Assembly (NCBI RefSeq): GCF_014695585.1
Contig: NZ_JACJON010000034.1
Span: 1-64,000, forward strand
Direction of reading: 5' to 3'
DNA length: 64,000 nt
Origin: Microcoleus sp. FACHB-831
GTDB taxonomy: Bacteria; Cyanobacteriota; Cyanobacteriia; Cyanobacteriales; FACHB-T130
How positions within the stretch are numbered: the first letter of the stretch is position 1; every line of letters begins with the position of its first letter. Shown one piece after another: positions 5,260-58,227 of this stretch. The notes beneath the pieces are model-generated. The model was not told the DNA's origin. It saw nothing but the letters and a program-made list of their open reading frames with translations, and did not search any database. The position numbers and the translations under genes are program-made.

Positions 5260-6378
5260 ATGTTAAACCTAAACACATTCATTTCCCTTCTATTGGTGTT
5301 CATCCCTGTATCCATCGCAGCGCACTTTCTACACTGGGGAGCGGCTATTATATTCATCACAGCCTGTCTGGGGATCATCCCCCTTGCCGCCTGGATGGGC
5401 ACAGCAACCGAAGAAATCGCCGTTGTTCTCGGCCCCTCAATGGGAGGGTTGTTAAACGCCACCTTTGGCAACGCGACAGAACTCATTATTGCCCTAGTTG
5501 CCCTCAACGCTGGGCTGATGGATGTCGTCAAAGCCAGCATCACCGGATCGATTATCAGCAACTTGCTCCTAGTAATGGGTTTCTCCATGCTGCTGGGGGG
5601 ACTGCGCTACAAAGAGCAGGAATTTCAGCCGATTGTGGCGCGGGTGAATGCTTCCTCCATGAATTTGGCCGTGATTGCGATTTTGCTGCCCTCGGCGATG
5701 GACTTCACCTCGACGGGGATCGATCGAGTCGCCATCCAGCAGCTTTCAATCGCTGTTGCCTTTGTGTTAATCGCAGTCTACGGTTTGACACTGCTATTTT
5801 CAATGAAAACTCACACTTATCTCTACGATGTGGGTTTAGCGGAGATGGACCCAGCTGAGTTAGCCGAGGCAAATTTGGCTCCAGACGACCCCAAAGGTGA
5901 AGTTAATCTTACGCTGTGGATTGGGGTGCTACTAGGAGCTACTCTCCTTGTGGCATATGAGTCAGAACTGCTCGTAGGTACTCTAGAAGAAGCCACAAAC
6001 CAGCTAGGGCTGTCGGCATTGTTTACCGGGGTGATCTTAGTGCCGATTATTGGCAATGCTGCGGAACACGCCACTGCTGTGACTGTGGCGATGAAAAACA
6101 AGATGGATCTAAGCGTCTCCGTTGCACTGGGTTCTAGCCTGCAAATTGCCCTGTTTGTAGCGCCTGTATTGGTTCTGGCAGGCTGGGTGATGGGTAAACC
6201 AATGGATTTAGAATTTAATCCGTTTGAGCTAGTAGCCGTTTCAGTGGCCGTCTTGATTGCCAATTCTATTAGTTCTGATGGTCGGTCGAACTGGCTGGAA
6301 GGCACATTGCTCTTGGCGGCATATTTGGTTTTGGGACTCGCCTTTTATTTCCATCCCGTAATGGTGGCAATGGGGTAA
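5260..6378 (+). CDS. Calcium/proton antiporter, CAX family (first copy)
   Basis: A 372-residue polytopic membrane protein with about 11 hydrophobic segments split by an acidic loop (residues about 190-215), the usual architecture and length of bacterial CAX exchangers. Both inverted-repeat signatures are intact: c-1 GNATELIIAL (Gly70, Asn71, Glu74) and c-2 GNAAEHATAVTVAMKNKMDL (Gly265, Asn266, Glu269, His270), followed by GSSLQIALF with Gln295. In the family these residues form the cation site that exchanges Ca2+ for H+ across the membrane. ATG 5260 is chosen over an in-frame TTG one codon upstream. The gene is followed after 171 bases by a kinase-WD40 gene, and a second CAX gene with the same kind of neighbours lies at 9676. 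Confidence 0.92.
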   Translation: MLNLNTFISLLLVFIPVSIAAHFLHWGAAIIFITACLGIIPLAAWMGTATEEIAVVLGPSMGGLLNATFGNATELIIALVALNAGLMDVVKASITGSIISNLLLVMGFSMLLGGLRYKEQEFQPIVARVNASSMNLAVIAILLPSAMDFTSTGIDRVAIQQLSIAVAFVLIAVYGLTLLFSMKTHTYLYDVGLAEMDPAELAEANLAPDDPKGEVNLTLWIGVLLGATLLVAYESELLVGTLEEATNQLGLSALFTGVILVPIIGNAAEHATAVTVAMKNKMDLSVSVALGSSLQIALFVAPVLVLAGWVMGKPMDLEFNPFELVAVSVAVLIANSISSDGRSNWLEGTLLLAAYLVLGLAFYFHPVMVAMG

Positions 6379-15837: not shown

Positions 15838-17361
<1,524 letters not shown>

Positions 17362-23564: not shown

Positions 23565-23572
23565 TTGGAGAA

Positions 23573-23589
23573 GGTGGGCAATGCCCACC
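23573..23589. terminator. Palindrome GGTGGGCA-A-TGCCCACC between convergent genes
   Basis: Eight-base perfect arms around a single base, nine bases after the transglutaminase stop and 19 before the end of the convergent Anbu gene. It belongs to the same family as the longer palindrome at 24446-24472 and likely acts as a stop signal for both genes, although no T-tract is present. Confidence 0.5.
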
Positions 23590-23607
23590 CTACAACTCCA
23601 AAATCAT

Positions 23608-24445: not shown

Positions 24446-24472
24446 AGTAGGGTGGGCACTGCCCACCCTACT
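24446..24472. repeat. Palindrome AGTAGGGTGGGCA-C-TGCCCACCCTACT
   Basis: Perfect 13-base arms 24446-24458 and 24460-24472 with a single-base loop, between the TPR gene and the Anbu gene. It extends the element seen at 23573 and matches a repeat widely dispersed between cyanobacterial genes. A degenerate relative is at about 63787-63812, and another appears to lie within the kinase gene at about 45498-45530. Confidence 0.65.
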
Positions 24473-33484: not shown

Positions 33485-33519
33485 AGTCCGGAGTCCGGAG
33501 TCCGGAGTCCGGAGTCCGG
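33485..33519. repeat. Heptamer tandem repeat AGTCCGG x5
   Basis: Five perfect AGTCCGG heptamers directly after the MBL gene and before the convergent TrpD-like gene. Degenerate relatives occur at 15609-15645 and, in coding sequence, within the histidine kinase genes near 50993 and 54089. A typical short tandemly repeated repetitive (STRR) element of filamentous cyanobacteria. Confidence 0.7.
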
Positions 33520-35843: not shown

Positions 35844-35920
35844 GTTTTGAGTTTTGAGTTTTGAGTTTTGAGTTTTGAGTTTTGAGTTTTGAGTTTTGAG
35901 TTTTGAGTTTTGAGTTTTGT
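35844..35920. repeat. Heptamer tandem repeat GTTTTGA x11
   Basis: Ten perfect GTTTTGA heptamers and an eleventh ending in T, followed after an interruption by more copies at 35940-35955 and 35981-35993. Translation of the minus strand gives a meaningless KLKTQNS repeat. It separates the LysR and HEAT-repeat genes. Single copies of GAGTTTTGA occur near 26276, 29591 and 29633. Confidence 0.8.
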
Positions 35921-44325: not shown

Positions 44326-45882
44326 GTGAAGTTACAATTGTTGGCGGTACTGGCATTGGCGACTTACTTAAATTGGAACGAACTCCACACCGTCCGCGAA
44401 ATTAATGCAGCAGTAGTAAACGTGAGCGGTCGTCAGCGGATGCTATCCCAACGAACAGCAATGTTAGCATTAAGAATGGTCTGCACTACGGACAGAGAGG
44501 AACAGGAAAAATTGCGCTCTTGTTTGCTAGCAGACTTAGATTTAATGGAGCGATCGCACAACGGGCTGCTAAACGGCGATGCAGAAGCGAAGCTACCAGG
44601 TCATCCTTCAAAAGTTGTCAAGGCAATGTATTTTGAATTGCCTATTAATCTAGACCAACGGGTACGTCAATATATTAAGGAAGCTAGAGCATTGGCGCTT
44701 TCGAGAGCTGATGAACTCGCACACGATAATCTTCATCTGCGCTACATTCTTACAGCGGCTTCAAAAGAATTACTTGAATCTTTAGATGCAGTTGTCAGCC
44801 AGTATCAAAAAGAAAGTGAAGCTGAACAACTAGCTATAGAAATTAATCAAGCTGAACTATATCAACAAAGTTGTGCGGCTACTGCTCAGGCTATTGCACA
44901 AGCCAAACAATTAGAGCAAGCTTTAGAGGAACTGCGGCAAGCTCAAACGCAGCTAATTCAGACAGAGAAAATGTCAGCTTTGGGGCAGTTAGTAGCAGGT
45001 GTTGCCCACGAAATAAACAACCCTGTGAGTTTTATTCACGGCAACCTGAGCCACGCCAGCAATTATGTCAAAGATTTGCTGGAGCTAGTACAGCTTTATC
45101 AACAAGAATTAAGCAACCCCACGCCTTATTTAAAAGATCGTTCCGAAGACATCGATCTGGATTTCTTGGAGGAAGACTTACCCAAAGTTATGTCGTCTAT
45201 GAAAATGGGGGCGGATCGTATTTGCCAAATAGTGCGTAGCCTACGCAATTTCTCTCGCACTGATGAAGAAGTTATGCAGGAGGTTGATATCCACGAAGGC
45301 ATTGACGGCACCCTGTTAATCTTGCAAAATCGACTAAGAGCTTCTGGTAATTATTCAGGAATACAAGTTATTAAAAAATATGCCGACTTGCCGCAGGTAG
45401 AGTGCTATCCCGGTTTAATGAATCAGGTTTTTATGAATCTTCTGGGCAATGCCATTGATGCGCTGGAAATGGGAACCGCGCAAGATTCACCCGAAGGAAG
45501 GGTAGACGATAGGCAATGCCCGCGCCCTACTATTAGCATTCGCACTGAAGTTTCACGCCCTAATGTTGTCAGCGTGAGGATTGCTGATAATGGCTTAGGT
45601 ATGACAGAAGACGTTAAGGCGCGATTATTTCAACCCTTTTTCACTACAAAGCCCGTCGGTAAGGGTACGGGCCTGGGTTTATCAATCAGTTATTCGATTG
45701 TGGTTAACAAGCATAACGGCTCACTTGCGTGCGTGTCAGAATTAGGGCAAGGGACGGAGTTTTGCATTGAGATTCCCATCCGCCACGCCCAGGAATTATC
45801 TGCAACAAAATTAGGGGAACAGGGAAGTAGGGGAGAATTATCCCCAGTTCAACCTTTATTTCAATCCCTAATAGGAATTTAG
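44326..45882 (+). CDS. Sensor histidine kinase with PilJ-type N-terminal domain
   Basis: A 518-residue kinase from GTG 44326 (an in-frame stop lies three codons upstream, so it cannot be longer). A short hydrophobic N-terminus leads into a PilJ-like sensor (INAAVVNVSGRQRMLSQRTAM, about 28-150), a helical linker (150-215), then the kinase core: HisKA with phosphoacceptor His228 in GVAHEINNP, and HATPase_c with NLLGNAIDALE (N box), DNGLGMTED (G1), FFTTKPVGKGTGLGLSIS (F/G2). The core matches the kinases at 49300 and 52648. The N-terminal membrane helix is unusually short, so the true start or a lost first exon-like segment by frameshift deserves checking. No response regulator is adjacent. Confidence 0.88.
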   Translation: MKLQLLAVLALATYLNWNELHTVREINAAVVNVSGRQRMLSQRTAMLALRMVCTTDREEQEKLRSCLLADLDLMERSHNGLLNGDAEAKLPGHPSKVVKAMYFELPINLDQRVRQYIKEARALALSRADELAHDNLHLRYILTAASKELLESLDAVVSQYQKESEAEQLAIEINQAELYQQSCAATAQAIAQAKQLEQALEELRQAQTQLIQTEKMSALGQLVAGVAHEINNPVSFIHGNLSHASNYVKDLLELVQLYQQELSNPTPYLKDRSEDIDLDFLEEDLPKVMSSMKMGADRICQIVRSLRNFSRTDEEVMQEVDIHEGIDGTLLILQNRLRASGNYSGIQVIKKYADLPQVECYPGLMNQVFMNLLGNAIDALEMGTAQDSPEGRVDDRQCPRPTISIRTEVSRPNVVSVRIADNGLGMTEDVKARLFQPFFTTKPVGKGTGLGLSISYSIVVNKHNGSLACVSELGQGTEFCIEIPIRHAQELSATKLGEQGSRGELSPVQPLFQSLIGI

Positions 45883-46697
45883 GACGGCGATCGCGCGTAA
45901 ATATTATTGGCAATTTACGCAAATTTGTAGTAATTAATACAAATTGCGTTTAATTTCCTGCCGACTAATGCTTTGTTTGTGGTAAGAGTATCTATGCCTT
46001 GATGGGGGCGATTTCTATGTTCGCACTCAGTTTAACAATTGCACGGACATTATAATTCAGCTATTTAGCGTAGAATTATCAGTAATTTTACGGTTGAACT
46101 TTAGACACAGTTAAAAAAATAATATTACAGCTATTTAATACTGGTTTTACTTATTGAAGTAGTTAGCTAGTGGTTGATTAAAGCAAGGTTAAGAAGTCGC
46201 ATCGTGCCCAGTTAATTACAAAACAGAATGTTGTTACTGGTTCATGGTTGATTGCAATTACCGCCACCAAGTATTACATAATAGGAATATTAAGCGACTT
46301 AGTACTAACCCAACGTAAATTAAGTGTATGCGTACCTTTTTGGTTAGCTCAATCAGCGCAGAATGCCACCAAACAGCTGCGAAATTATTGCGATCGCAGT
46401 TTTTATAAACTTCAAAAGTGATCGACAACACAATGCCATTAATGGATTTGGCGTAGAATCATACCTTGTGAAAATTGACGCTGGCAATATTTACGCGAGG
46501 ATAAGCTTAACTTTTCCGCGCCTCACTAATTTTTTTGCAATAGACAAATGTCGAGTAACAGCCCTGGAAACTGCGTTATGAATTGAACGGGGAAAATTTT
46601 GCCCCTACTGTAATGAACTTGTTAAAAGGACTGTGAGTGAGATCGAAGATAGAAGTTGACATTATACAAACCAGCAATCGCGAATAGGGTGCAGACG
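45883..46697. other. Long intergenic region without recognised gene
   Basis: About 815 bases of AT-rich sequence before the GGDEF-EAL gene. A 72-codon frame at 46363-46581 has no ribosome site or similarity that I can recognise. I searched here for an H-NOX gene because the next protein carries an HNOBA domain, and found none. Promoter and possibly small RNA content cannot be resolved by eye. Confidence 0.4.
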
Positions 46698-48914
46698 ATG
46701 ACAAGCTTTTCACAAACTTTAAGAACAACTTCGAGCCTAATAAATTCTCCCGGCTTCAGTCTCTCCGCGTCTATATTGGGGTCAATTTGCCCTTTCAATA
46801 TAGTTTTCAACAAACATGGAGAAATTGTACAAGTTGGAGATACATTACACCTCGCAATCCCGGAATTGTCTACAGGGAAACATCTAAATCAGCACTTCTG
46901 CATCCTTAGTCCCCAAGTACAGCTTAAATTTGACGCTATTAAAAAACTTACTAATTCGCTCTTTATCATGAGATCCCTGGATAATGGGATGCAGATCGAG
47001 GGATATATGGTTTACGTTGAGGAAAATGATGTCATATTCTTTTTTGGTTCTCCTCCGCTAGCAGATTATAAAGACCAGAATAGGCTAGAGAGCAGCCTAA
47101 ACGACGGCGCTGTTCAAGACTCGGTAGTTGATTATATACTCCTACTACAGGCGCAATATGTTGCCTTAGCAGAGGCCAAAAATTTACCTAAAAATTTCAA
47201 TATGCAACGGTTAAACTTGGGCGATGCTGGAAGTAAACCCGAAATGGCAGCATCTGACGTGAAAGCTATATTTCAAACTTTTCCTGAATTATATTTTCGG
47301 ATGCAAGCGGATGGCACGATTGTAGATTATCATGCAGAAACATCCTCTAAACGGTACGATTCACCCAGAGGATTTTTGGGTAAAAACATTAGAGATGTTT
47401 TACCAGCAGGCGTCGCCCAGCAATTCCAACAAGCTGTTGTTCAGAGTTTGAACGCTAACTCATTAGTTGCTATTGAGTATTTTTTAGAGTTACCAAAAGG
47501 TAAAAAAAGCTTTGAGGCGAGGTTATTACCTCTTCCTGAACGACAAGTTATTGTAATTATCCGCGATGTAACAGAGCGCCAGCAGGCAGAGGAAAAAATT
47601 CGCTATCAAGCTTTGCACGATCTGCTGACTGGTTTACCTAACAGGATGCTGTTTAACGAGCGGCTTTCTATCTCCTTGACTTCTGCAAGCCAACTTGGCG
47701 GTATGTTGGCGGTATGTTTTTTGGATTTGGATCGTTTCAAGACTATTAACGATACGCTAGGCCATAAAGCAGGCGATCGCTTGTTGCAATGCGTGGCTCA
47801 AAGACTCGCAGGCTGTTTGAGAGAAGGTGACACTGTTGCCCGTTGGGGAGGCGATGAATTCATTGTGTTACTCTCTCACATCAACTGTAAAGATGACGCT
47901 GCTAAAATCGCCCAGAGGATTTTGGAAGCTTTTAAACCTAGCTTCGATCTAGATGGTCATCAACTTCATATCAGCAGCAGCATTGGCATCTCTGTCTCTC
48001 CTTATGACGGTGAAGAGGGGGAAACTTTGATCAAAAATGCCGACGCTGCCTTATATCGTGCTAAACAACAAGGCCGTAATAACTATCAGCTTTACACTAA
48101 GGCGCTTAACTCCAAAGCAGAGGAATTATTAACTTTAGAAAATAGGCTCCACCGCGCCCTAGAACAGGGAGAATTTTTGGTTCACTATCAGCCTCAAGTT
48201 AATACCTCTACCGGAGAAATTATCCAACTTGAAGCCCTAGTGCGTTGGCAACATCCAGATATCGGTCTAGTTTCTCCTGCGACATTTATCCCTCTAGCTG
48301 AAGAAACTGGATTGATCGTGCCGATTGGCGAATGGGTGTTAAAAACTGCCTGTGCCCAAAATAAAGCTTGGCATGATGCCGGATTGCCTCCTGTATGCGT
48401 GGCAGTAAACTTGTCTGCAAGACAGTTTCAGCAACCAAACTTGGTAGAAATGGTGGGGCGGATTTTGTCGGAAACAGGATTAGACCCCCGATTTTTAGAG
48501 CTAGAAATCACTGAAAGCAGCGTCATGGGAAATATGGATTTTAGCAGGGCAATGCTGCGCGATTTACATAACATGGGCGTCGGCATTTCTATGGATGATT
48601 TTGGTACGGGTTACTCTTCACTGTTGTATATCAAAAATTTCCCGCTTCACGGTTTAAAAATTGACCAATCTTTTGTGCGAGATTTAACTACCGATCCAAA
48701 TAATGCAGCAATCGTGACAGCCGTTATTGCTCTCGGGCACGGGCTTAATCTCAGCGTTGTGGCGGAGGGTGTGGAAACGGAAGAACAAAAAGATTTCTTG
48801 CGTAGTCTCCAGTGCGAAGTAATGCAAGGTTACTTGTTTAGCCGACCTTTATCAGTCTCTGATGCAACTAAGCTGCTGCAAAAATCCTGCATTAAAGCAT
48901 TAAAAGCTTCTTGA
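46698..48914 (+). CDS. HNOBA-PAS-GGDEF-EAL cyclic-di-GMP protein
   Basis: A 738-residue protein starting at ATG 46698 (AGGG 8 bases upstream; a TTG 14 codons earlier is possible). Residues about 25-165 match the H-NOX-associated domain (ICPFNIVFNKHGEIVQVG, FFFGSPPLADYKDQNRL, DYILLLQAQYVALAEAKNL). A PAS domain follows (TFPELYFRMQADGTIVDYHAE), then a diguanylate cyclase domain with an intact GGDEF (ARWGGDEFIVLLS) and a phosphodiesterase domain with EAL (QLEALVRWQHP), DDFGTGYSS and EGVET. Both catalytic domains look active. There is no membrane span. HNOBA domains normally pair with an H-NOX gas sensor, which is absent here. Confidence 0.88.
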   Translation: MTSFSQTLRTTSSLINSPGFSLSASILGSICPFNIVFNKHGEIVQVGDTLHLAIPELSTGKHLNQHFCILSPQVQLKFDAIKKLTNSLFIMRSLDNGMQIEGYMVYVEENDVIFFFGSPPLADYKDQNRLESSLNDGAVQDSVVDYILLLQAQYVALAEAKNLPKNFNMQRLNLGDAGSKPEMAASDVKAIFQTFPELYFRMQADGTIVDYHAETSSKRYDSPRGFLGKNIRDVLPAGVAQQFQQAVVQSLNANSLVAIEYFLELPKGKKSFEARLLPLPERQVIVIIRDVTERQQAEEKIRYQALHDLLTGLPNRMLFNERLSISLTSASQLGGMLAVCFLDLDRFKTINDTLGHKAGDRLLQCVAQRLAGCLREGDTVARWGGDEFIVLLSHINCKDDAAKIAQRILEAFKPSFDLDGHQLHISSSIGISVSPYDGEEGETLIKNADAALYRAKQQGRNNYQLYTKALNSKAEELLTLENRLHRALEQGEFLVHYQPQVNTSTGEIIQLEALVRWQHPDIGLVSPATFIPLAEETGLIVPIGEWVLKTACAQNKAWHDAGLPPVCVAVNLSARQFQQPNLVEMVGRILSETGLDPRFLELEITESSVMGNMDFSRAMLRDLHNMGVGISMDDFGTGYSSLLYIKNFPLHGLKIDQSFVRDLTTDPNNAAIVTAVIALGHGLNLSVVAEGVETEEQKDFLRSLQCEVMQGYLFSRPLSVSDATKLLQKSCIKALKAS

Positions 48915-49299
48915 ATATCTATTTAATAGTCCTAAATTATTTGTGAATTTTTACCCTTGCTGCTGCCTTTTCCCTAGTATGTTTAAGTTTTACAACTAAA
49001 AGGGAATTGCTATATTTGCATGATGTATTGTTGGAATTGAATATTTATTCGCGCATTGCGTGACCTTACATCCATCAAAAGTTGGGGTTTGCTGAGAATG
49101 AGCATTATCTCCGAAAGTAATCCTATGCCTTGCATCACAGCTATATTTAATCATCCTAAAAATAGTATCAAGCTACTATAAGAAATAGCGCTTATTGCTT
49201 ATTAAATATTTGGCGATAATCTTTAAAAATAAGTAATATAGAGCAAAAAACGCAGCTCTTAGGTGTCAAAAAATAAATCTAATAAATCAAGCTTTATAA
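48915..49299. other. Intergenic region without recognised gene
   Basis: About 385 bases, AT-rich, between two signalling genes on the same strand. No gene-like frame, repeat or clear terminator. The spacing argues against co-transcription of the GGDEF-EAL gene and the CHASE kinase. Confidence 0.4.
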
Positions 49300-51315
49300 A
49301 TGAATCGTCGTTATATTCCAGTATTGTTGATGCTAGGCGCGGGTACTTTTTTGTCTATTATAGGCTGCTTAACAGTATGGAATTGGGAACAAGAACGCTT
49401 GCAGTCCTCCTTCCAAAACCAGGCAGACAAAGTGACTACAGCCATCCAGCGAAGTATCGACAGCAATTTGGAAATACTCGAAGCAACTGGCAAGTTATAT
49501 GCAGCATCCGGCACGGTCGAACGCGAAGAATTTAAAATTTTCGTTGAAGATTTCTTGGTTCGTTACCCCAGTCTGCGAGCAATGAATTGGACGCGCCGCA
49601 TCCCGTTAAAAGAGCGCTCGCTCTTCGAGAAAGCAATTCGAGCAGAAGGTTTTCCCAACTTTGAGATTAAAGATAGAGATGCCGGGGGTATGCTTATTTC
49701 AGCCCGCCGACGACCCGAATATTTCCCAATCACTTATGTCGAACCATTCCAAAAAGATAATAATTTTAACAAAGCCTTCGGTTTCGATCTTGGCTCCGAT
49801 CCGATGCGTCGTCAAGGACTGAAAAAGGCACGCGATACAGGAAAAATGATTGCTACGGGAGCGATCAAAATTGTAACGACTGACCAACTTGGGTTTTTAA
49901 CTTTACTACCCATTTACCGCAAAAATCAGCCAATAAATACTGTTTCGTTACGCCGCGAAAACTTCCAAGGATTTATTACCGGCGTTTTTCAAATTGCAGA
50001 TATTATCGAAGCATCTTTGTCAGACTTGGAACTAGAGAATATTGATTTTTATCTTTTTGACAACTCTGGTTATGTTAAAGATAATTTTTTGTCTTATTAC
50101 AAATCCAGCACAAAAAAGTTAATATCAGAAGCAAATAAAAATAAATTTTCCGCTATACAATCTGCTTCGGAATGCCTGAAAAAAACTACCTGTGCGCGCA
50201 ACCTCAAAGTTGCAGATCGTCAGTGGTTATTGCTTATATTACCCACTTCAGAATATACGGCAATTCAATCCCACTGGGGAGCGTTGACGACATTAGCAAT
50301 CGGATTACTGTTAACTAGCATTTTAACTATCTACGTGCTAATTTCGCTGCGGCATACTTTTCAGGTAGAACAATTGGTGCGCGATCGCACTGCTCAAGCC
50401 AAACAACTCCACGAAACCTTGCAAGAATTACAGCAAACCCAATCTCAACTTATTCAGACCGAAAAAATGTCCAGCCTCGGTCAGATGGTGGCTGGTGTTG
50501 CTCACGAAATCAACAATCCAGTTAACTTCATCTACGGTAATATTACCCACGCAGACGAATACATTCAACAGCTACTGGAACTACTTCGCCTCTACCACAT
50601 GCACTGTAAACAAACCACCCAAATTGAGGAATATGCAGAAGCCATTGACCTTGATTTCCTAATTGCTGATTTACCTAAAATGCTGTCTTCAATGAAAATT
50701 GGAGCCGATCGCATTCGTCAGATTGTGCTATCTTTGCGGAATTTTTCTCGCCTCGATGAAGCTGAAATGAAGCAGGTTGATATTCATGAAGGTATAGATA
50801 GCACTCTATTAATTTTGCAACATCGATTGAAAGCAAAGTCAGATCGTCCGGCTATTGAAATACTTAAACAATATGATAACTTGCCCCAAATAGAATGCTA
50901 CGCCGGACAAATGAATCAGGTGTTTATGAATATTCTCAGCAATGCGATTGAAGCGCTGGAAATAGAAACTGGTGAAAAAGCGCTGTTGAATCTTGACTCC
51001 GGACTACAGACTTTCGACTCCAGACTGACAATCCCTACTATTAAGATTCGCACTGAGATATTAAAGCCCAATTATGTCAGAATAATTATTTCCGACAACG
51101 GGCCAGGTATAACGGAGGAGGTAAGTAAACGGTTATTCGATCCATTTTTCACCACAAAAGCACCTGGAAAAGGGACGGGGTTGGGGTTATCCATTACTTA
51201 TCAAATTGTGGTTGAAAAGCACGGAGGCTCTATTCAGTGCTTATCAAAACCGGGAGAAGGGGCAGAATTTTCTATTGAAATTCCCGTCAGCCAAAGTCGC
51301 CAACAAGGTAATTAA
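49300..51315 (+). CDS. CHASE-domain sensor histidine kinase
   Basis: A 671-residue membrane kinase. An N-terminal membrane helix (about 5-28) and a second (about 325-352) bracket a periplasmic CHASE-type domain (ASGTVEREEFKIFVEDFLVRYPSLRAMNWTRRIP and PITYVEPFQKDNN.AFGFDLGSDPMRR). CHASE domains bind small ligands such as cytokinin-like molecules or peptides. A coiled linker leads to HisKA with His402 in GVAHEINNP and HATPase_c with NILSNAIEALE, DNGPGITEE and FFTTKAPGKGTGLGLS. It is a paralogue of the kinases at 44326 and 52648 in the catalytic half. It has an inserted stretch of about 20 residues in the ATPase domain, related to GACTCC repeats (50993-51030). Confidence 0.92.
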   Translation: MNRRYIPVLLMLGAGTFLSIIGCLTVWNWEQERLQSSFQNQADKVTTAIQRSIDSNLEILEATGKLYAASGTVEREEFKIFVEDFLVRYPSLRAMNWTRRIPLKERSLFEKAIRAEGFPNFEIKDRDAGGMLISARRRPEYFPITYVEPFQKDNNFNKAFGFDLGSDPMRRQGLKKARDTGKMIATGAIKIVTTDQLGFLTLLPIYRKNQPINTVSLRRENFQGFITGVFQIADIIEASLSDLELENIDFYLFDNSGYVKDNFLSYYKSSTKKLISEANKNKFSAIQSASECLKKTTCARNLKVADRQWLLLILPTSEYTAIQSHWGALTTLAIGLLLTSILTIYVLISLRHTFQVEQLVRDRTAQAKQLHETLQELQQTQSQLIQTEKMSSLGQMVAGVAHEINNPVNFIYGNITHADEYIQQLLELLRLYHMHCKQTTQIEEYAEAIDLDFLIADLPKMLSSMKIGADRIRQIVLSLRNFSRLDEAEMKQVDIHEGIDSTLLILQHRLKAKSDRPAIEILKQYDNLPQIECYAGQMNQVFMNILSNAIEALEIETGEKALLNLDSGLQTFDSRLTIPTIKIRTEILKPNYVRIIISDNGPGITEEVSKRLFDPFFTTKAPGKGTGLGLSITYQIVVEKHGGSIQCLSKPGEGAEFSIEIPVSQSRQQGN

Positions 51316-51674
51316 AAATTCAATTACGTTATTAAATATATTTTTTCAAATAATATTTACAAGAAAGTCTGTGTGTTGTAATACAGATAATATAAGTGCA
51401 GAGTGCAAAAGCGCGCTCGCACAGAAAAGCTTAGAAACCCGTAAAAACACAGATTTTATTTTTCGCTAACTTGCTTAATATTTATATAGCTCAAGGGTAG
51501 ATTATAAGCTAATTGCCATAGGTGCGTCTCGAAGTTGGCAAAGAGCTTAATCTCACCATAACCTCTAGCAACTACAACCAGTACAGCAGGCTTGAGAAAT
51601 TTTGCCTATTAATTGTTTTAAAAATAATATTTGCCACACCAAAAAAAATTACCAACTCAAGGAGCCTTTACCCA
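51316..51674. other. Intergenic region upstream of PhnD-like gene
   Basis: About 360 bases. A longer in-frame extension of the PhnD-like gene begins at 51522, but it encodes a polar, repeat-free leader before the lipoprotein signal, so it is not used. No other gene is visible. Confidence 0.4.
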
Positions 51675-52637
51675 ATGCAACAGCATCTAGCTCATACAGT
51701 GAAGCGATCGCGCAGACGATCCGCAGCTAGCTTGATGCTAGCCTTAACAGTCATGGCGATCGGTGCAGGCTGTACCCAACCACCTCAGAACAGCATAGCA
51801 ACACAGCAAGATACAGCAGCGCCAACTAGCACCAGTAACAAGCCAGGGGACGAACTAGCAACCCTGAATATGGCGATCATTCCTTGGCAGGTTTCAGCTG
51901 AACAAGAGAAACAACTCCAGCCATTAGCGGACTATCTTACAAAGACTCTAAACCGACCAGTTAAATTCCAGATTTCAAAAGACTACGACACCTCGGTTAA
52001 TTTACTGGTGGAAGGAAAAGTTGATTTAGCCTACTTGGGAGCGTTCACATACATCAAGGCGCGTCTTCGCGATCCTAAAGTGCAGCCAATCGTTGCTCCT
52101 ATCGACAAAACTACAGGACGACCTTGGTACACAAGCGCGATTATTGTTAATAATGCTAGTGGGATAAAGACTCTTAAAGATTTAAAAGGCAAGCGATTCG
52201 CCTTCGTAAGTAAATCATCAACTTCAGGCTACTTAGTGCCTATGGCGCAGTTTAAAGATCTGAAAATTGTTCCGGAGCGCGACTTTAGCCAGGTCAAGTA
52301 TGCGGGTAGTCATGACAAAGTAAAAACAGCTTTAATAGCAGGGGAAGTAGATGCGATCGCAGATGATAAACGCTCGTATTTAGCCCAGCAAAAAGCAGGC
52401 AAATTCGCTCCATCAAAATACAAAATTATCTGGGAATCTAAACCAATTCCCAACTCGCCAATTGTTGCTTCCAGTAAACTTTCACCACAATTAATAGCGG
52501 ATTTGAAGAAGGCATTTGTCAATGCGCCTGATGGACTATTAGACGCTACCGGTTCCGAATCAGCTGGATACACTCTGGCACAAGATGAAGACTACACACC
52601 GATTAGAAAACTGCAAGAGCGCCTTGGATTGAAATAA
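51675..52637 (+). CDS. PhnD-type phosphate/phosphonate-binding lipoprotein
   Basis: A 320-residue periplasmic binding protein. ATG 51675 is chosen: it follows CAAGGAGC and begins a lipoprotein signal (MQQHLAHTVKRSRRRSAASLMLALTVMAIGAG-Cys), though Gly at -3 of the lipobox is weak. The mature part matches PhnD/PtxB family: VKFQISKDYDTSVNLLVEGKVDLAYLGAFTYI, DLKGKRFAFVSKSSTSGYLVP and AGEVDAIADDKRSY, i.e. the phosphate/phosphite/phosphonate-binding fold. There is no PhnC or PhnE transporter gene nearby. Instead a sensor kinase gene begins 10 bases downstream, suggesting that the protein presents its ligand to that kinase rather than to a permease. Confidence 0.88.
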   Translation: MQQHLAHTVKRSRRRSAASLMLALTVMAIGAGCTQPPQNSIATQQDTAAPTSTSNKPGDELATLNMAIIPWQVSAEQEKQLQPLADYLTKTLNRPVKFQISKDYDTSVNLLVEGKVDLAYLGAFTYIKARLRDPKVQPIVAPIDKTTGRPWYTSAIIVNNASGIKTLKDLKGKRFAFVSKSSTSGYLVPMAQFKDLKIVPERDFSQVKYAGSHDKVKTALIAGEVDAIADDKRSYLAQQKAGKFAPSKYKIIWESKPIPNSPIVASSKLSPQLIADLKKAFVNAPDGLLDATGSESAGYTLAQDEDYTPIRKLQERLGLK

Positions 52638-52647
52638 AAGCGATCGC

Positions 52648-54444
52648 ATGAAAATATTAACTAAATTTATTGGTTCTTCTGTTGCCTTTATAGGGCTAAT
52701 TGTATCTCTTACAGTTGGAAGTGAATTCCTATTAAAAAGAGTGGAGATATCTACAGAAACCAGCCACGAGAGAGTCGATCGAGCCTTCAGTGCAGCCGTT
52801 AATCTAAAACTCTCCTTAAGAGATCAAATCGCAGCACTCAGGAACTATATCATCCTCAATCACGACCCGTCAGACATGGCGAAGTACTACAAAGCTATGT
52901 CAGAATTTATACTTAGCCTGGATGATTTGCAAAGCCTGATTCCAGAAAATTCAGAACTGGCAATTATCCGCCGTCGCCACAACTTTCTCGTGCGTTTAGC
53001 AACAGAACTTCGTGACGAGCCTTCCACTCTCGAACAGACCCAGCAGGATTTCAGAACGATCAATTCTTATAGAGATGATATTGACTTCTCTCTAGATTCG
53101 CTGGTGAGTAGCGTTGAACAGCAGCATGCATTAGCGAAACAACAAGCAAATCAATTCAAATACACTACCCAAGTTGTTAGGTACACTACCACAGGTATAA
53201 TTCTGCTGTTCTTTGGCGGTCAAATAGTGCTGATATTACTTCCGGTAATTCGCTCTATCGAAAAGCTGCAAATGGGAGCAGCAAAAATTGGTATGGGCAA
53301 CTTGGATTATCGCTTGAATATCAACACAAAAGATGAAATTCAACAACTTTCCTGCGAATTCAACCAGATGGCGACAAGGCTCGCTGAATCTTATCACTCC
53401 CTAGAGGAGAAAGTAATTGATCGTACAGCCGAACTAATAAGATTAAACCAAAATTTAGAAATTGAAATTGCTGAACGCACGCTAGCAGAAACAGAACTTC
53501 AGCAAGCTCTACAAAAATTGCAACAAACTCAAACGCAACTGATTCAAACCGAAAAGATGTCTGGATTGGGTCAGATGGTTGCTGGTGTAGCTCATGAAAT
53601 TAATAACCCTGTTAACTTTATACACGGCAACCTCGTCTATCTGGACCAATACACTCAAGAACTACTAACGCTGGTACAGCTTTATCAAAAGCACTATCCC
53701 CAACCAGCAGAAGAAATTCAAGAACATACTGAAAATATTGAAATTGACTTTCTCGTTAAAGATTTATCTAAAATTCTATCTTCGATGAAGATCGGCACCG
53801 AACGCATCCGTCAGATTGTCCTATCTCTGCGAAATTTCTCTCGCCTCGACGAAGCAGAAATGAAGCCCGTAGATCTTCATGAAGGCATTGATAGCACGCT
53901 GTTAATCCTGAAAAACCGCCTGAAAACAAATTCAGGAAATAACGAAATTCAGGTGATTAAAGACTATGGCAATTTGCCATTAGTTGAGTGCTATGCGGGA
54001 CAACTGAATCAGGTGTTCATGAATATTCTCAGCAATGCGATTGAGGCGCTGGAAATAGAGACAGGGGATAAGGGATTTTTGGATATTGGCTCCAGAGTCC
54101 CTACTCCAGACTCTAAACTCCCAATCCCTACTATTAGGATTCGTACTGAGATGTTAAACCCTAATGTTGTTGCGGTGCGAATTGTGGATAATGGGCCAGG
54201 TATGACCGAAGAAGTGCAAACACGGTTATTTGACCCGTTTTTCACTACTAAGCCAGTGGGTAAAGGCACGGGGTTGGGGTTGTCGATCAGCTATGGAATT
54301 ATAGTGCAGAAGCATCAGGGGGCGCTGAGGTGCGTGTCAGAAAAGGGACAAGGAACGGAGTTTTGGATTGAAATCCCGGTGAGGCAAACTGTTGAGGTAT
54401 TAGGTAGTCAAAGGTTGAAAACTGAGGCGATGACTTCGGCTTGA
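52648..54444 (+). CDS. Sensor histidine kinase with HAMP, coupled to PhnD gene
   Basis: A 598-residue membrane kinase. Transmembrane helices at about 7-29 and 178-200 enclose a helical extracytoplasmic region of about 150 residues (CHASE3/4HB-like, RVDRAFSAAVNLKLSLRDQIAALRNYI). A HAMP domain follows (IRSIEKLQMGAAKIGMGNLDYRL, about 205-255), then a coiled coil, HisKA with His316 in GVAHEINNP and HATPase_c (NILSNAIEALE, DNGPGMTEE, FFTTKPVGKGTGLGLSIS). The ATG is 10 bases after the PhnD-type gene stop, inside a TAAAAGCGATCGC spacer, so translation is likely coupled. No response regulator lies nearby. The catalytic half closely matches the kinase at 49300. Confidence 0.92.
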   Translation: MKILTKFIGSSVAFIGLIVSLTVGSEFLLKRVEISTETSHERVDRAFSAAVNLKLSLRDQIAALRNYIILNHDPSDMAKYYKAMSEFILSLDDLQSLIPENSELAIIRRRHNFLVRLATELRDEPSTLEQTQQDFRTINSYRDDIDFSLDSLVSSVEQQHALAKQQANQFKYTTQVVRYTTTGIILLFFGGQIVLILLPVIRSIEKLQMGAAKIGMGNLDYRLNINTKDEIQQLSCEFNQMATRLAESYHSLEEKVIDRTAELIRLNQNLEIEIAERTLAETELQQALQKLQQTQTQLIQTEKMSGLGQMVAGVAHEINNPVNFIHGNLVYLDQYTQELLTLVQLYQKHYPQPAEEIQEHTENIEIDFLVKDLSKILSSMKIGTERIRQIVLSLRNFSRLDEAEMKPVDLHEGIDSTLLILKNRLKTNSGNNEIQVIKDYGNLPLVECYAGQLNQVFMNILSNAIEALEIETGDKGFLDIGSRVPTPDSKLPIPTIRIRTEMLNPNVVAVRIVDNGPGMTEEVQTRLFDPFFTTKPVGKGTGLGLSISYGIIVQKHQGALRCVSEKGQGTEFWIEIPVRQTVEVLGSQRLKTEAMTSA

Positions 54445-56868: not shown

Positions 56869-58227
56869 ATGTTCAAACAAGCTTTCTGTGGTGGTTTTCT
56901 AAGTTTGGCTTTACTCAACTTCCCCGTGTCCAGTTCTGCTGTAACTGTAGATGAAGTTCCAAACCCAAGAAAGCTAAATGGCGGTTGGGTTGAGGATATG
57001 GCAAATATACTAACGCCTGCGACTGAAGCTGAGATTAATAGACAAATTTCAGCGCTGGAGGCTCAAAATGGTAGTGAAATCGCAGTGGTAACGGTAACGG
57101 AAACTGCGCCATCTAGAACTCCGAAAGAGTTTGCTACGGCGTTGTTCAATCGCTGGCACATTGGTAAGAAAGATAAAAACAATGGCGTCTTATTTTTGAT
57201 TTCCAAGCGCGAGCGCCGAGTAGAAATTGAGACGGGATATGGGGTTGAGACTATTCTGCCAAATGCCAAAGTAGGCAACATTATCAAGCAAGAAATTACG
57301 CCGCGATTCAAAAAAGACGACTTTGATGGCGGTACGCTAGCTGGAAGCAAAGCGCTAGTAATCAGCCTACAAGCATCAGAGCCGCTATTGAACTCTAGCG
57401 ACGAGCGTCCTTGGTATGTCGATATACCTTGGTACGATTGGCTATTCTACGGATTTACTGGTGGTTCCATAGCTGCTGCGATCGCCGCGATGTTTTACGC
57501 AAAAAAGGCAATGCCAGATGGTAGGACAAAGGCGAATTTAATTGAACCAGAGGGGCGATCGCGTAATTTGTCGCACCAATCTGTAAACTGCGCCAAATGC
57601 TTTCAACCTATGGAACAAGTAGAATCTACTAAACTCCCGCTGCATCTCAACATAGCTGAAAAATTTCTTCAAAACCTGGGTTATGTGAGATATGAAGGTT
57701 GGCAGTGTCCCAACTGTCTTCAGCATCTAACCGGACAAGGGATGCACATACACGAGATTACATTAAAGCCTTACCAAATAAGTAGCTGCCCTAGCTGCGG
57801 ACAAGTGGCAAAGACAACCCAATCGGAGGTTTTAGAAGCAGCGACAACAAATAAAACAGGCAAGCTGTTAGTTAGCGATCGCTGCTATCACTGTTCTTAC
57901 ACCCATCAGACTGAAGAAACAATTCCTCTCTTTGAAGCCGTTTCTAACATTAACAGTAGCGATAGTTCCTGGAGCAGCAGCAGTAGCGATAGCGGTAGTA
58001 GTAGCAGTAGCAGTAGCGATATTTCCTGGAGCAGCAGTAGCGATAGCGGTAGCAGTAGCGATAGTTCTTGGAGTAGCAGCAGCAGCGATAGCGGTAGCAG
58101 TTCCAGCAGCAGTAGCGATAGTTCTTGGAGTAGCAGCAGCGATAGTTCTTGGAGCAGCAGTAGCGATAGCGGTAGCAGTTTTGGAGGTGGGGATAGTTGT
58201 GGCGGTGGAGATGGTGGAAGCTGGTAA
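56869..58227 (+). CDS. TPM-domain protein with zinc motifs and Ser-rich tail
   Basis: A 452-residue protein. A signal peptide (about 1-24) precedes a TPM domain (about 35-175: GGWVEDMANILTPATEAEINRQ, RREVEIETGYGVE-type block reading ERRVEIETGYGVETILPNA), as in the photosystem II assembly/repair factor Psb32 and related proteins. A transmembrane helix follows (about 190-212), then a cytosolic part with four Cys pairs (CAKC, CPNC, CPSC, CYHC, about 240-345) suggesting zinc ribbons. Residues about 360-440 are Ser/Asp/Gly low complexity with repeated DSSWSSSS units, ending in a Gly-rich GGGDSCGGGDGGSW, the usual TPM protein end. The tail length is likely variable. Confidence 0.85.
   Translation: MFKQAFCGGFLSLALLNFPVSSSAVTVDEVPNPRKLNGGWVEDMANILTPATEAEINRQISALEAQNGSEIAVVTVTETAPSRTPKEFATALFNRWHIGKKDKNNGVLFLISKRERRVEIETGYGVETILPNAKVGNIIKQEITPRFKKDDFDGGTLAGSKALVISLQASEPLLNSSDERPWYVDIPWYDWLFYGFTGGSIAAAIAAMFYAKKAMPDGRTKANLIEPEGRSRNLSHQSVNCAKCFQPMEQVESTKLPLHLNIAEKFLQNLGYVRYEGWQCPNCLQHLTGQGMHIHEITLKPYQISSCPSCGQVAKTTQSEVLEAATTNKTGKLLVSDRCYHCSYTHQTEETIPLFEAVSNINSSDSSWSSSSSDSGSSSSSSSDISWSSSSDSGSSSDSSWSSSSSDSGSSSSSSSDSSWSSSSDSSWSSSSDSGSSFGGGDSCGGGDGGSW

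Follow-up and report, generated by a model that had tools for sequence, protein, structure and literature searches.

The 64,000-nucleotide stretch analysed here (the window) lies on contig 34 of G000, the 6.42 Mb cyanobacterial genome of Microcoleus sp. FACHB-831, and carries three histidine kinase genes, designated K1, K2 and K3 (Table 1). Pfam assigned a HATPase_c domain to all three at 76.6–82 bits, above the cut-off of 26.4, and the HisKA match lay above its cut-off of 26.9 in K2 (30.2 bits) and below it in K1 and K3 (22.2 bits). The three kinases are members of one expanded family with approximately 50 paralogues in G000, where the K2 kinase core matched 51 places at E ≤ 1e-60 and 68 at 1e-10. 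An earlier note, made from the letters of this DNA alone, had drawn attention to a variable loop at the same spot of the three ATPase domains, and had proposed that intergenic repeats entered this tolerated loop, either repeatedly or early with later divergence. The strings that it quoted were all recovered in place (AGGCAATGCCCGCGCCCTAC at 45511-45530 in K1, GACTCCGGACTACAGACT from 50995 in K2 and GGCTCCAGAGTCCCTACTCC from 54088 in K3), and the three genes are open throughout.

Table 1. Features of the window, with positions counted from its first nucleotide
Feature	Positions	Strand	Description	Basis
K1 histidine kinase	44326..45882	+	PilJ-type N-terminus, HisKA under Pfam cut-off, HATPase_c	Open reading frame, Pfam
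K2 histidine kinase	49300..51315	+	CHASE-HisKA-HATPase_c	Open reading frame, Pfam
K3 histidine kinase	52648..54444	+	HAMP-HATPase_c, HisKA match under Pfam cut-off	Open reading frame, Pfam
K1 loop	45466..45525	+	NAIDAL to PTISIRTE; with 45526-45530, spans half of a GTAGGG..CCCTAC palindrome (45511-45530)	
K2 loop	50959..51033	+	About 10 degenerate 7-bp units (ACTnnnG type), single register	
K3 loop	54052..54126	+	About 10 degenerate 7-bp units, single register; orthologues have a repeat-free loop there	
Tandem heptamer array	33485..33519	+	AGTCCGG x5, intergenic	
Dispersed palindrome	24447..24471	+	Intergenic copy, GTAGGGTGGGCACTGCCCACCCTAC	
Dispersed palindrome	23569..23593	+	Second window copy, AGAAGGTGGGCAATGCCCACCCTAC	
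PhnD-like periplasmic phosphonate-binding-type protein	51522..52637	+	Between K2 and K3	Pfam, synteny

The loops of K2 and K3, situated between the N-box helix and the strand that follows it, each keep to a single 7-base-pair (bp) register of approximately ten units, which runs from the Glu codon that follows NAIEAL up to CCTACTATT / CCCTACTATT. Divided into sevens, the K2 loop reads AATAGAA ACTGGTG AAAAAGC GCTGTTG AATCTTG ACTCCGG ACTACAG ACTTTCG ACTCCAG ACTGACA, and the K3 loop reads AATAGAG ACAGGGG ATAAGGG ATTTTTG GATATTG GCTCCAG AGTCCCT ACTCCAG ACTCTAA ACTCCCA. The units are degenerate, with lag-7 scores of 19 (K2) and 18 (K3) out of 28, and codon shuffling gave p = 0.0002 for the K2 loop and p = 0.0002 for the K3 loop, indicating that their resemblance to AGTCCGG heptamers, as claimed earlier, exceeds chance. 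Arrays of this type occur at many sites in G000, with 89 matches to a 19-mer of AGTCCGG triplets at no more than two mismatches (overlaps counted separately) and none for the reversed control. Because the K2 and K3 loops agree in unit number and in both borders, the two arrays are likely one common array, shared by descent or gene conversion, that has since diverged. Nucleotide identity between the two genes is highest at the N-box (0.92), a peak that may or may not reflect gene conversion between them.

The position and period of the arrays were evaluated in 215 non-redundant kinase cores from G000, 80 cyanobacterial loci and several relatives. For each lag, scanning windows in which 20 or more of 28 positions matched were counted in the N-box-to-DxG region and in the parts upstream and downstream of it. 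At lag 7, 17 N-box-to-DxG regions contained positive windows. Neither the upstream nor the downstream parts contained any, even though the number of positions available upstream is four times that of the loop regions. Lags 14 and 21 showed the same pattern, and all other lags were positive in 0–2 kinases. In addition, codon shuffling gave p ≤ 0.01 for 41 of the 215 loop regions, compared with 1 of 215 control segments (Fisher p = 3e-12). As 7 is not a multiple of 3, the periodicity belongs to the DNA and not to a coiled coil or peptide heptad. The next beta-hairpin is a second site, holding 7 of 44 arrays. When the phylum was scanned for an N-box with GGGGANT units, 3 of 386 genomes matched, the pattern being too strict to gauge spread.

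The heptamers in the loops were compared with those between genes. In all three genera tested, loop heptamers were closest to the heptamers between genes of the same genus; the result was clear in two genera, one of which, that of G000, was represented by only three loops. Thus the check proposed earlier, whether the loops of paralogues and relatives hold different repeat families, was borne out: different kinases and genera contain different heptamer families, closest to those between the genes of their own genus. Moreover, four kinase loops in the related genus g2 (three in locus L204 and one in L197) contain a whole dispersed element including its centre, of the form [ACTGGGG]n, GGGTAAGA..TCTTCC or a variant centre, [CCCAATC]m. 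The complete element, [ACTGGGG]n-GGTAAGA..TCTTCC-[CCCAATC]m, consists of G-rich heptamers, a centre and C-rich heptamers, and the arms and centre seen in the g2 kinase loops recur in intergenic copies in genomes G001 and G004. The GGTAAGA..TCTT centre was found in loops of L197 and L204 and between genes in L199, L215 and L217. One young G001 loop folds far better than its shuffles (z = -5.4), as expected from opposed G-rich and C-rich arms; in the K1, K2 and K3 loops, an RNA hairpin was sought and the folds were no better than shuffles (z between -1.3 and +1.1).

A chance resemblance, or one caused by the biased composition of a low-complexity coding loop, would be compatible with K1 taken alone (heptamer p = 0.18), and low-complexity loops are common. 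However, the signal is conspicuous at lags 7, 14 and 21 only and is not reproduced when the codons of these loops are shuffled, control segments are clean, and complete elements including the centre are common to loops and intergenic DNA. At the level of the family, the lag scan, the shuffles and the shared complete elements refute this explanation, which we regard as extremely improbable.

The direction of change was examined for K3, whose orthologues were recognised through the sensor part and, in several cases, also through an adjoining PhnD-like gene. The repeat-free form of the loop is a conserved stretch of 16 residues, D-x-Y-N-x-x-R-S-x-E-E-I-K-x-N-P-S, and is present, well kept, in 51 of 237 kinases. 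Orthologues of K3 with this form were found in G007, G025, G009 and G039 (sensor identity 69%, 54%, 52% and 38%, respectively); the loop at the Anabaena locus L091 is identical to that of G039, and the two may come from one genome. Because the orthologues in four other genomes retain the repeat-free loop, the repeat fill of K3 is derived. The repeats fill or replace a pre-existing loop and do not create one. Ancient loops conserved in species that lack the repeats had been named earlier as evidence contrary to repeat entry; the loop did prove ancient and its repeat-free form conserved, and the repeat content proved derived in K3. The loop of K3 in the window differs from that of its nearest orthologue (G003, 73%) and both hold heptamers, through either two entries or a single entry followed by turnover. 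Orthologues of K1 have very different loops, the one in G036 being a clear heptamer array.

On a FastTree phylogeny from which the loop was excluded, 44 of 237 kinases have the repeat state, which requires at least 28 changes. These changes bear on a further explanation, a single early insertion in an ancestral kinase, followed by spread through gene duplication and by divergence. For K2 and K3 as a pair, the equal unit number, start and end and the identity peak at the N-box (0.92) do point to a shared origin or conversion. Across the family, however, the number of changes, the scattering of repeat-bearing kinases over the tree, the K3 orthologues with repeat-free loops and the different heptamers in different genera argue against a single event, and we consider it very improbable.

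The density of arrays was determined in five genomes (G000, G001, G003, G004 and G005), covering approximately 1.9 Mb in 20-kb pieces with simple calling of open reading frames. The loop region contained 1.08 arrays per kb, intergenic DNA 0.37, other coding DNA 0.034 and the remaining kinase core none (65 kb). The expectation that such loops are enriched for repeats over other coding DNA was therefore confirmed, with a 32-fold difference. Heptamers with stops in both orientations made up 77 of 190 in intergenic DNA (40%) and 9 of 92 in other coding DNA (10%), a deficit that is expected if only readable repeats persist.

The stability of the loops was evaluated in pairs of orthologues within a genus. 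Repeat loops were 0.89 identical, as against 0.957 for the upstream part, and repeat-free loops 0.94 as against 0.955. A length change was seen in 1 of 13 repeat-loop pairs, the longest arrays lying outside this count. One of the latter, in a G001 kinase, has over 20 units and is almost pure; the orthologue of this kinase in G004 is 94–95% identical and has an array 62 nucleotides shorter and out of frame. In another pair, the sensor parts are 99% identical and the loop regions of 171 and 195 nucleotides differ in their centres. Assembly error in such arrays may contribute to these differences. Locus L325 (G004:C110, approximately 66395-68900) combines a stop in the sensor part with an out-of-frame heptamer array, and its G001 orthologue (L204) is intact; we regard L325 as a kinase gene that is decaying or was mis-assembled.

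A 7-bp unit shifts the reading frame, and the G001 array and its shorter, out-of-frame G004 counterpart would fit a phase-variation switch in which the gain or loss of units moves the kinase out of frame and back. However, the G004 copy also has the stop in its sensor part and so resembles ordinary decay, most arrays are too degenerate for slippage, most orthologue pairs show no length change, and assembly error in repeats is possible. Such a switch is accordingly quite improbable.

The structural setting of the loop was predicted with AlphaFold2 from a 12-member alignment. The loop (residues 179–196) had a predicted local distance difference test (pLDDT) score below 50 and lay between the N-box helix (156–178) and a strand (201–210), in a model of moderate overall quality (mean pLDDT 69.9). 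The kinase loop is thus predicted to be disordered.

The case of K1 is weaker. Its loop gave no heptamer signal in the codon shuffle, and its similarity to the dispersed palindrome GTAGGGTGGGCANTGCCCACCCTAC covers one half of the latter, in a 19-nucleotide stretch, GGCAATGCCCGCGCCCTAC. The 17-bp core pattern of this palindrome has 67 matches in G000 on both strands and none for the control, a count that concerns the palindrome and not the K1 copy. The half-match of K1 was the top score among 30 loops of its own genome and was equalled by 3 of 5450 coding segments. Considered as a candidate GTAG-tagged repetitive extragenic palindrome, K1 has GTAG at 45502 and CTAC at 45527-45530, but its match to the dispersed copies is confined to the 3' half, and its RNA fold is no better than shuffles (z = -0.05). 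A reference palindrome modelled partly on K1 itself was dropped as circular and was not counted as evidence. The claim that the K1 loop holds the dispersed palindrome therefore stands as a half-match, and a repeat origin for it is suggestive only.

The data show directly that the arrays are present, periodic, specific to this position and enriched there, that they match intergenic elements, in g2 as whole elements, that the state of K3 is derived and that the tree requires at least 28 changes. These findings support the proposal that intergenic repeats entered a tolerated loop. We consider it highly probable that, in many cyanobacteria, dispersed heptamers recurrently fill this kinase loop in frame and then decay. 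In this expanded cyanobacterial kinase family, the HATPase domain would have a tolerated surface site in the loop that joins the N-box helix to the following strand and, less frequently, in the beta-hairpin after it. Dispersed tandem heptamers, sometimes as whole hairpin elements with G-rich and C-rich arms, would repeatedly enter or replace it across genes and lineages, by recombination or gene conversion between dispersed repeats or by insertion, followed by slippage. Copies that are free of stops and keep the frame would survive, and substitution would gradually erase their repeat character, K2 and K3 being examples. The purest arrays would still vary in unit number and could break the gene. 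We infer that the inserted peptide is most likely functionally neutral.

Several observations weigh against this interpretation. In addition to the weakness of K1, no empty site with a target duplication was found, so that the route of entry is one that we infer. Twelve of the 13 genus-level pairs keep their loop length, which indicates slow turnover, the longest arrays excepted. The kinase loop may also be one tolerant site among many disordered linkers. Furthermore, loop arrays are approximately three times denser than intergenic arrays (P = 0.0002), which goes beyond plain tolerance, an excess limited by the origin of 9 of the 16 loop arrays in G001 and by the relatives not being independent. 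That excess, together with the retention of most loop lengths among species of one genus and the approximately 50 paralogues in one genome, is what would be expected if the loops were used, that is, if repeat-derived variation were selected because it diversifies these kinases, for instance through partner insulation or tuning of the catalytic domain. However, the loop sequence drifts faster than the core, the sort of repeat tracks the intergenic families of the genome, the loop is predicted to be disordered, and many paralogues do well with a short or repeat-free loop; we hold such use to be unlikely. It is similarly doubtful that the frame-shifting 7-bp arrays render some histidine kinases of cyanobacteria phase-variable or, alternatively, provide selected variation by which dozens of paralogues are kept distinct.

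Other features were noted beside the kinases and repeats. The PhnD-like gene directly preceding K3 (the two together spanning window 51522-54444) stays with the K3 orthologues in G003, G007 and G009 and in the Nostocales loci L081 and L091, and its product possibly feeds the K3-type kinase. Elsewhere in G000, an AGTCCGG-type array (L006:2346-2378) lies approximately 8 bp 3' of a histidine kinase stop codon. The window also contains a perfect GTTTTGA array of 10.9 units (35844-35919) and a long AGCAGT-type repeat region (57954-58212). In genus g2, long elements between genes, in which G-rich and C-rich heptamers are separated by a GGTAAGA-type centre, were located at L197:13662-13828, L194:11079-11270, L210:14994-15229 and L199:2296-2448, and their unit numbers vary between the two species of the genus. 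A protein of approximately 880 amino acids, outside the detected kinase cores, carries two separate in-frame CCCCAAT arrays in both g2 species (L203:4757-4830 and 5770-5836; L221:15121-15184 and 16130-16179).

In Nostoc punctiforme, Elhai and colleagues reportedly described in 2008 small dispersed repeats embedded in heptamers. The G001 element, with a small hairpin centre within heptameric arrays, is likened to these by description and not by sequence. In Nostoc sp. PCC 7120, 68% of the arrays of GGGGA(C/T)T (G-quadruplex) heptamers are intergenic and the rest lie inside genes (PMC4692102). These are likewise dispersed 7-bp units, and G001 loops hold the same GGGGACT sort; that report names no preferred protein-family site, and its main text is without the words kinase, sensor and two-component. 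In Nostoc, the P6b loop of the tRNA-Leu(UAA) group I intron has repeatedly exchanged one repeat motif for another (PMC4476775); it resembles the kinase loop in being a tolerated loop at one place in a conserved molecule; however, it is an RNA stem-loop without a reading frame, and here a protein loop is affected in many paralogues. Repetitive extragenic palindromes (REPs) and Rickettsia palindromic elements are dispersed palindromes that can lie within genes and keep the frame; in Xanthomonas recB their position is about the same (PMC3733652). REPs are palindromes of 20–40 bp, many of them linked to REP-associated tyrosine transposases (RAYT), whereas the kinase loops hold mainly tandem heptamers, at one site across dozens of paralogues and several bacterial families. 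TAACTGA heptamers, direct 7-bp repeats of Beggiatoaceae and also cyanobacteria, are found for the most part immediately 5' of start codons, where a regulatory role has been proposed for them (PMC4679880), and differ in that the unit has forward stop codons. No report of this kinase loop was found in the literature consulted, an absence that is no proof of novelty. Heptamers and REPs within genes and repeats in the trnL intron are thus already known, and the kinase site and the scale appear to be new.

The kinase loop provides a countable case of non-coding repeats turned into protein, at one loop, in dozens of paralogues per genome and in many genera. As the repeat-free outgroup state and all stages from pure array to faded remnant are available, the rate of entry, the stop and frame filter and the effect on a well-assayed enzyme become directly testable. 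For the cyanobacterial kinases themselves, differences between loops may represent repeat noise and not adaptation.

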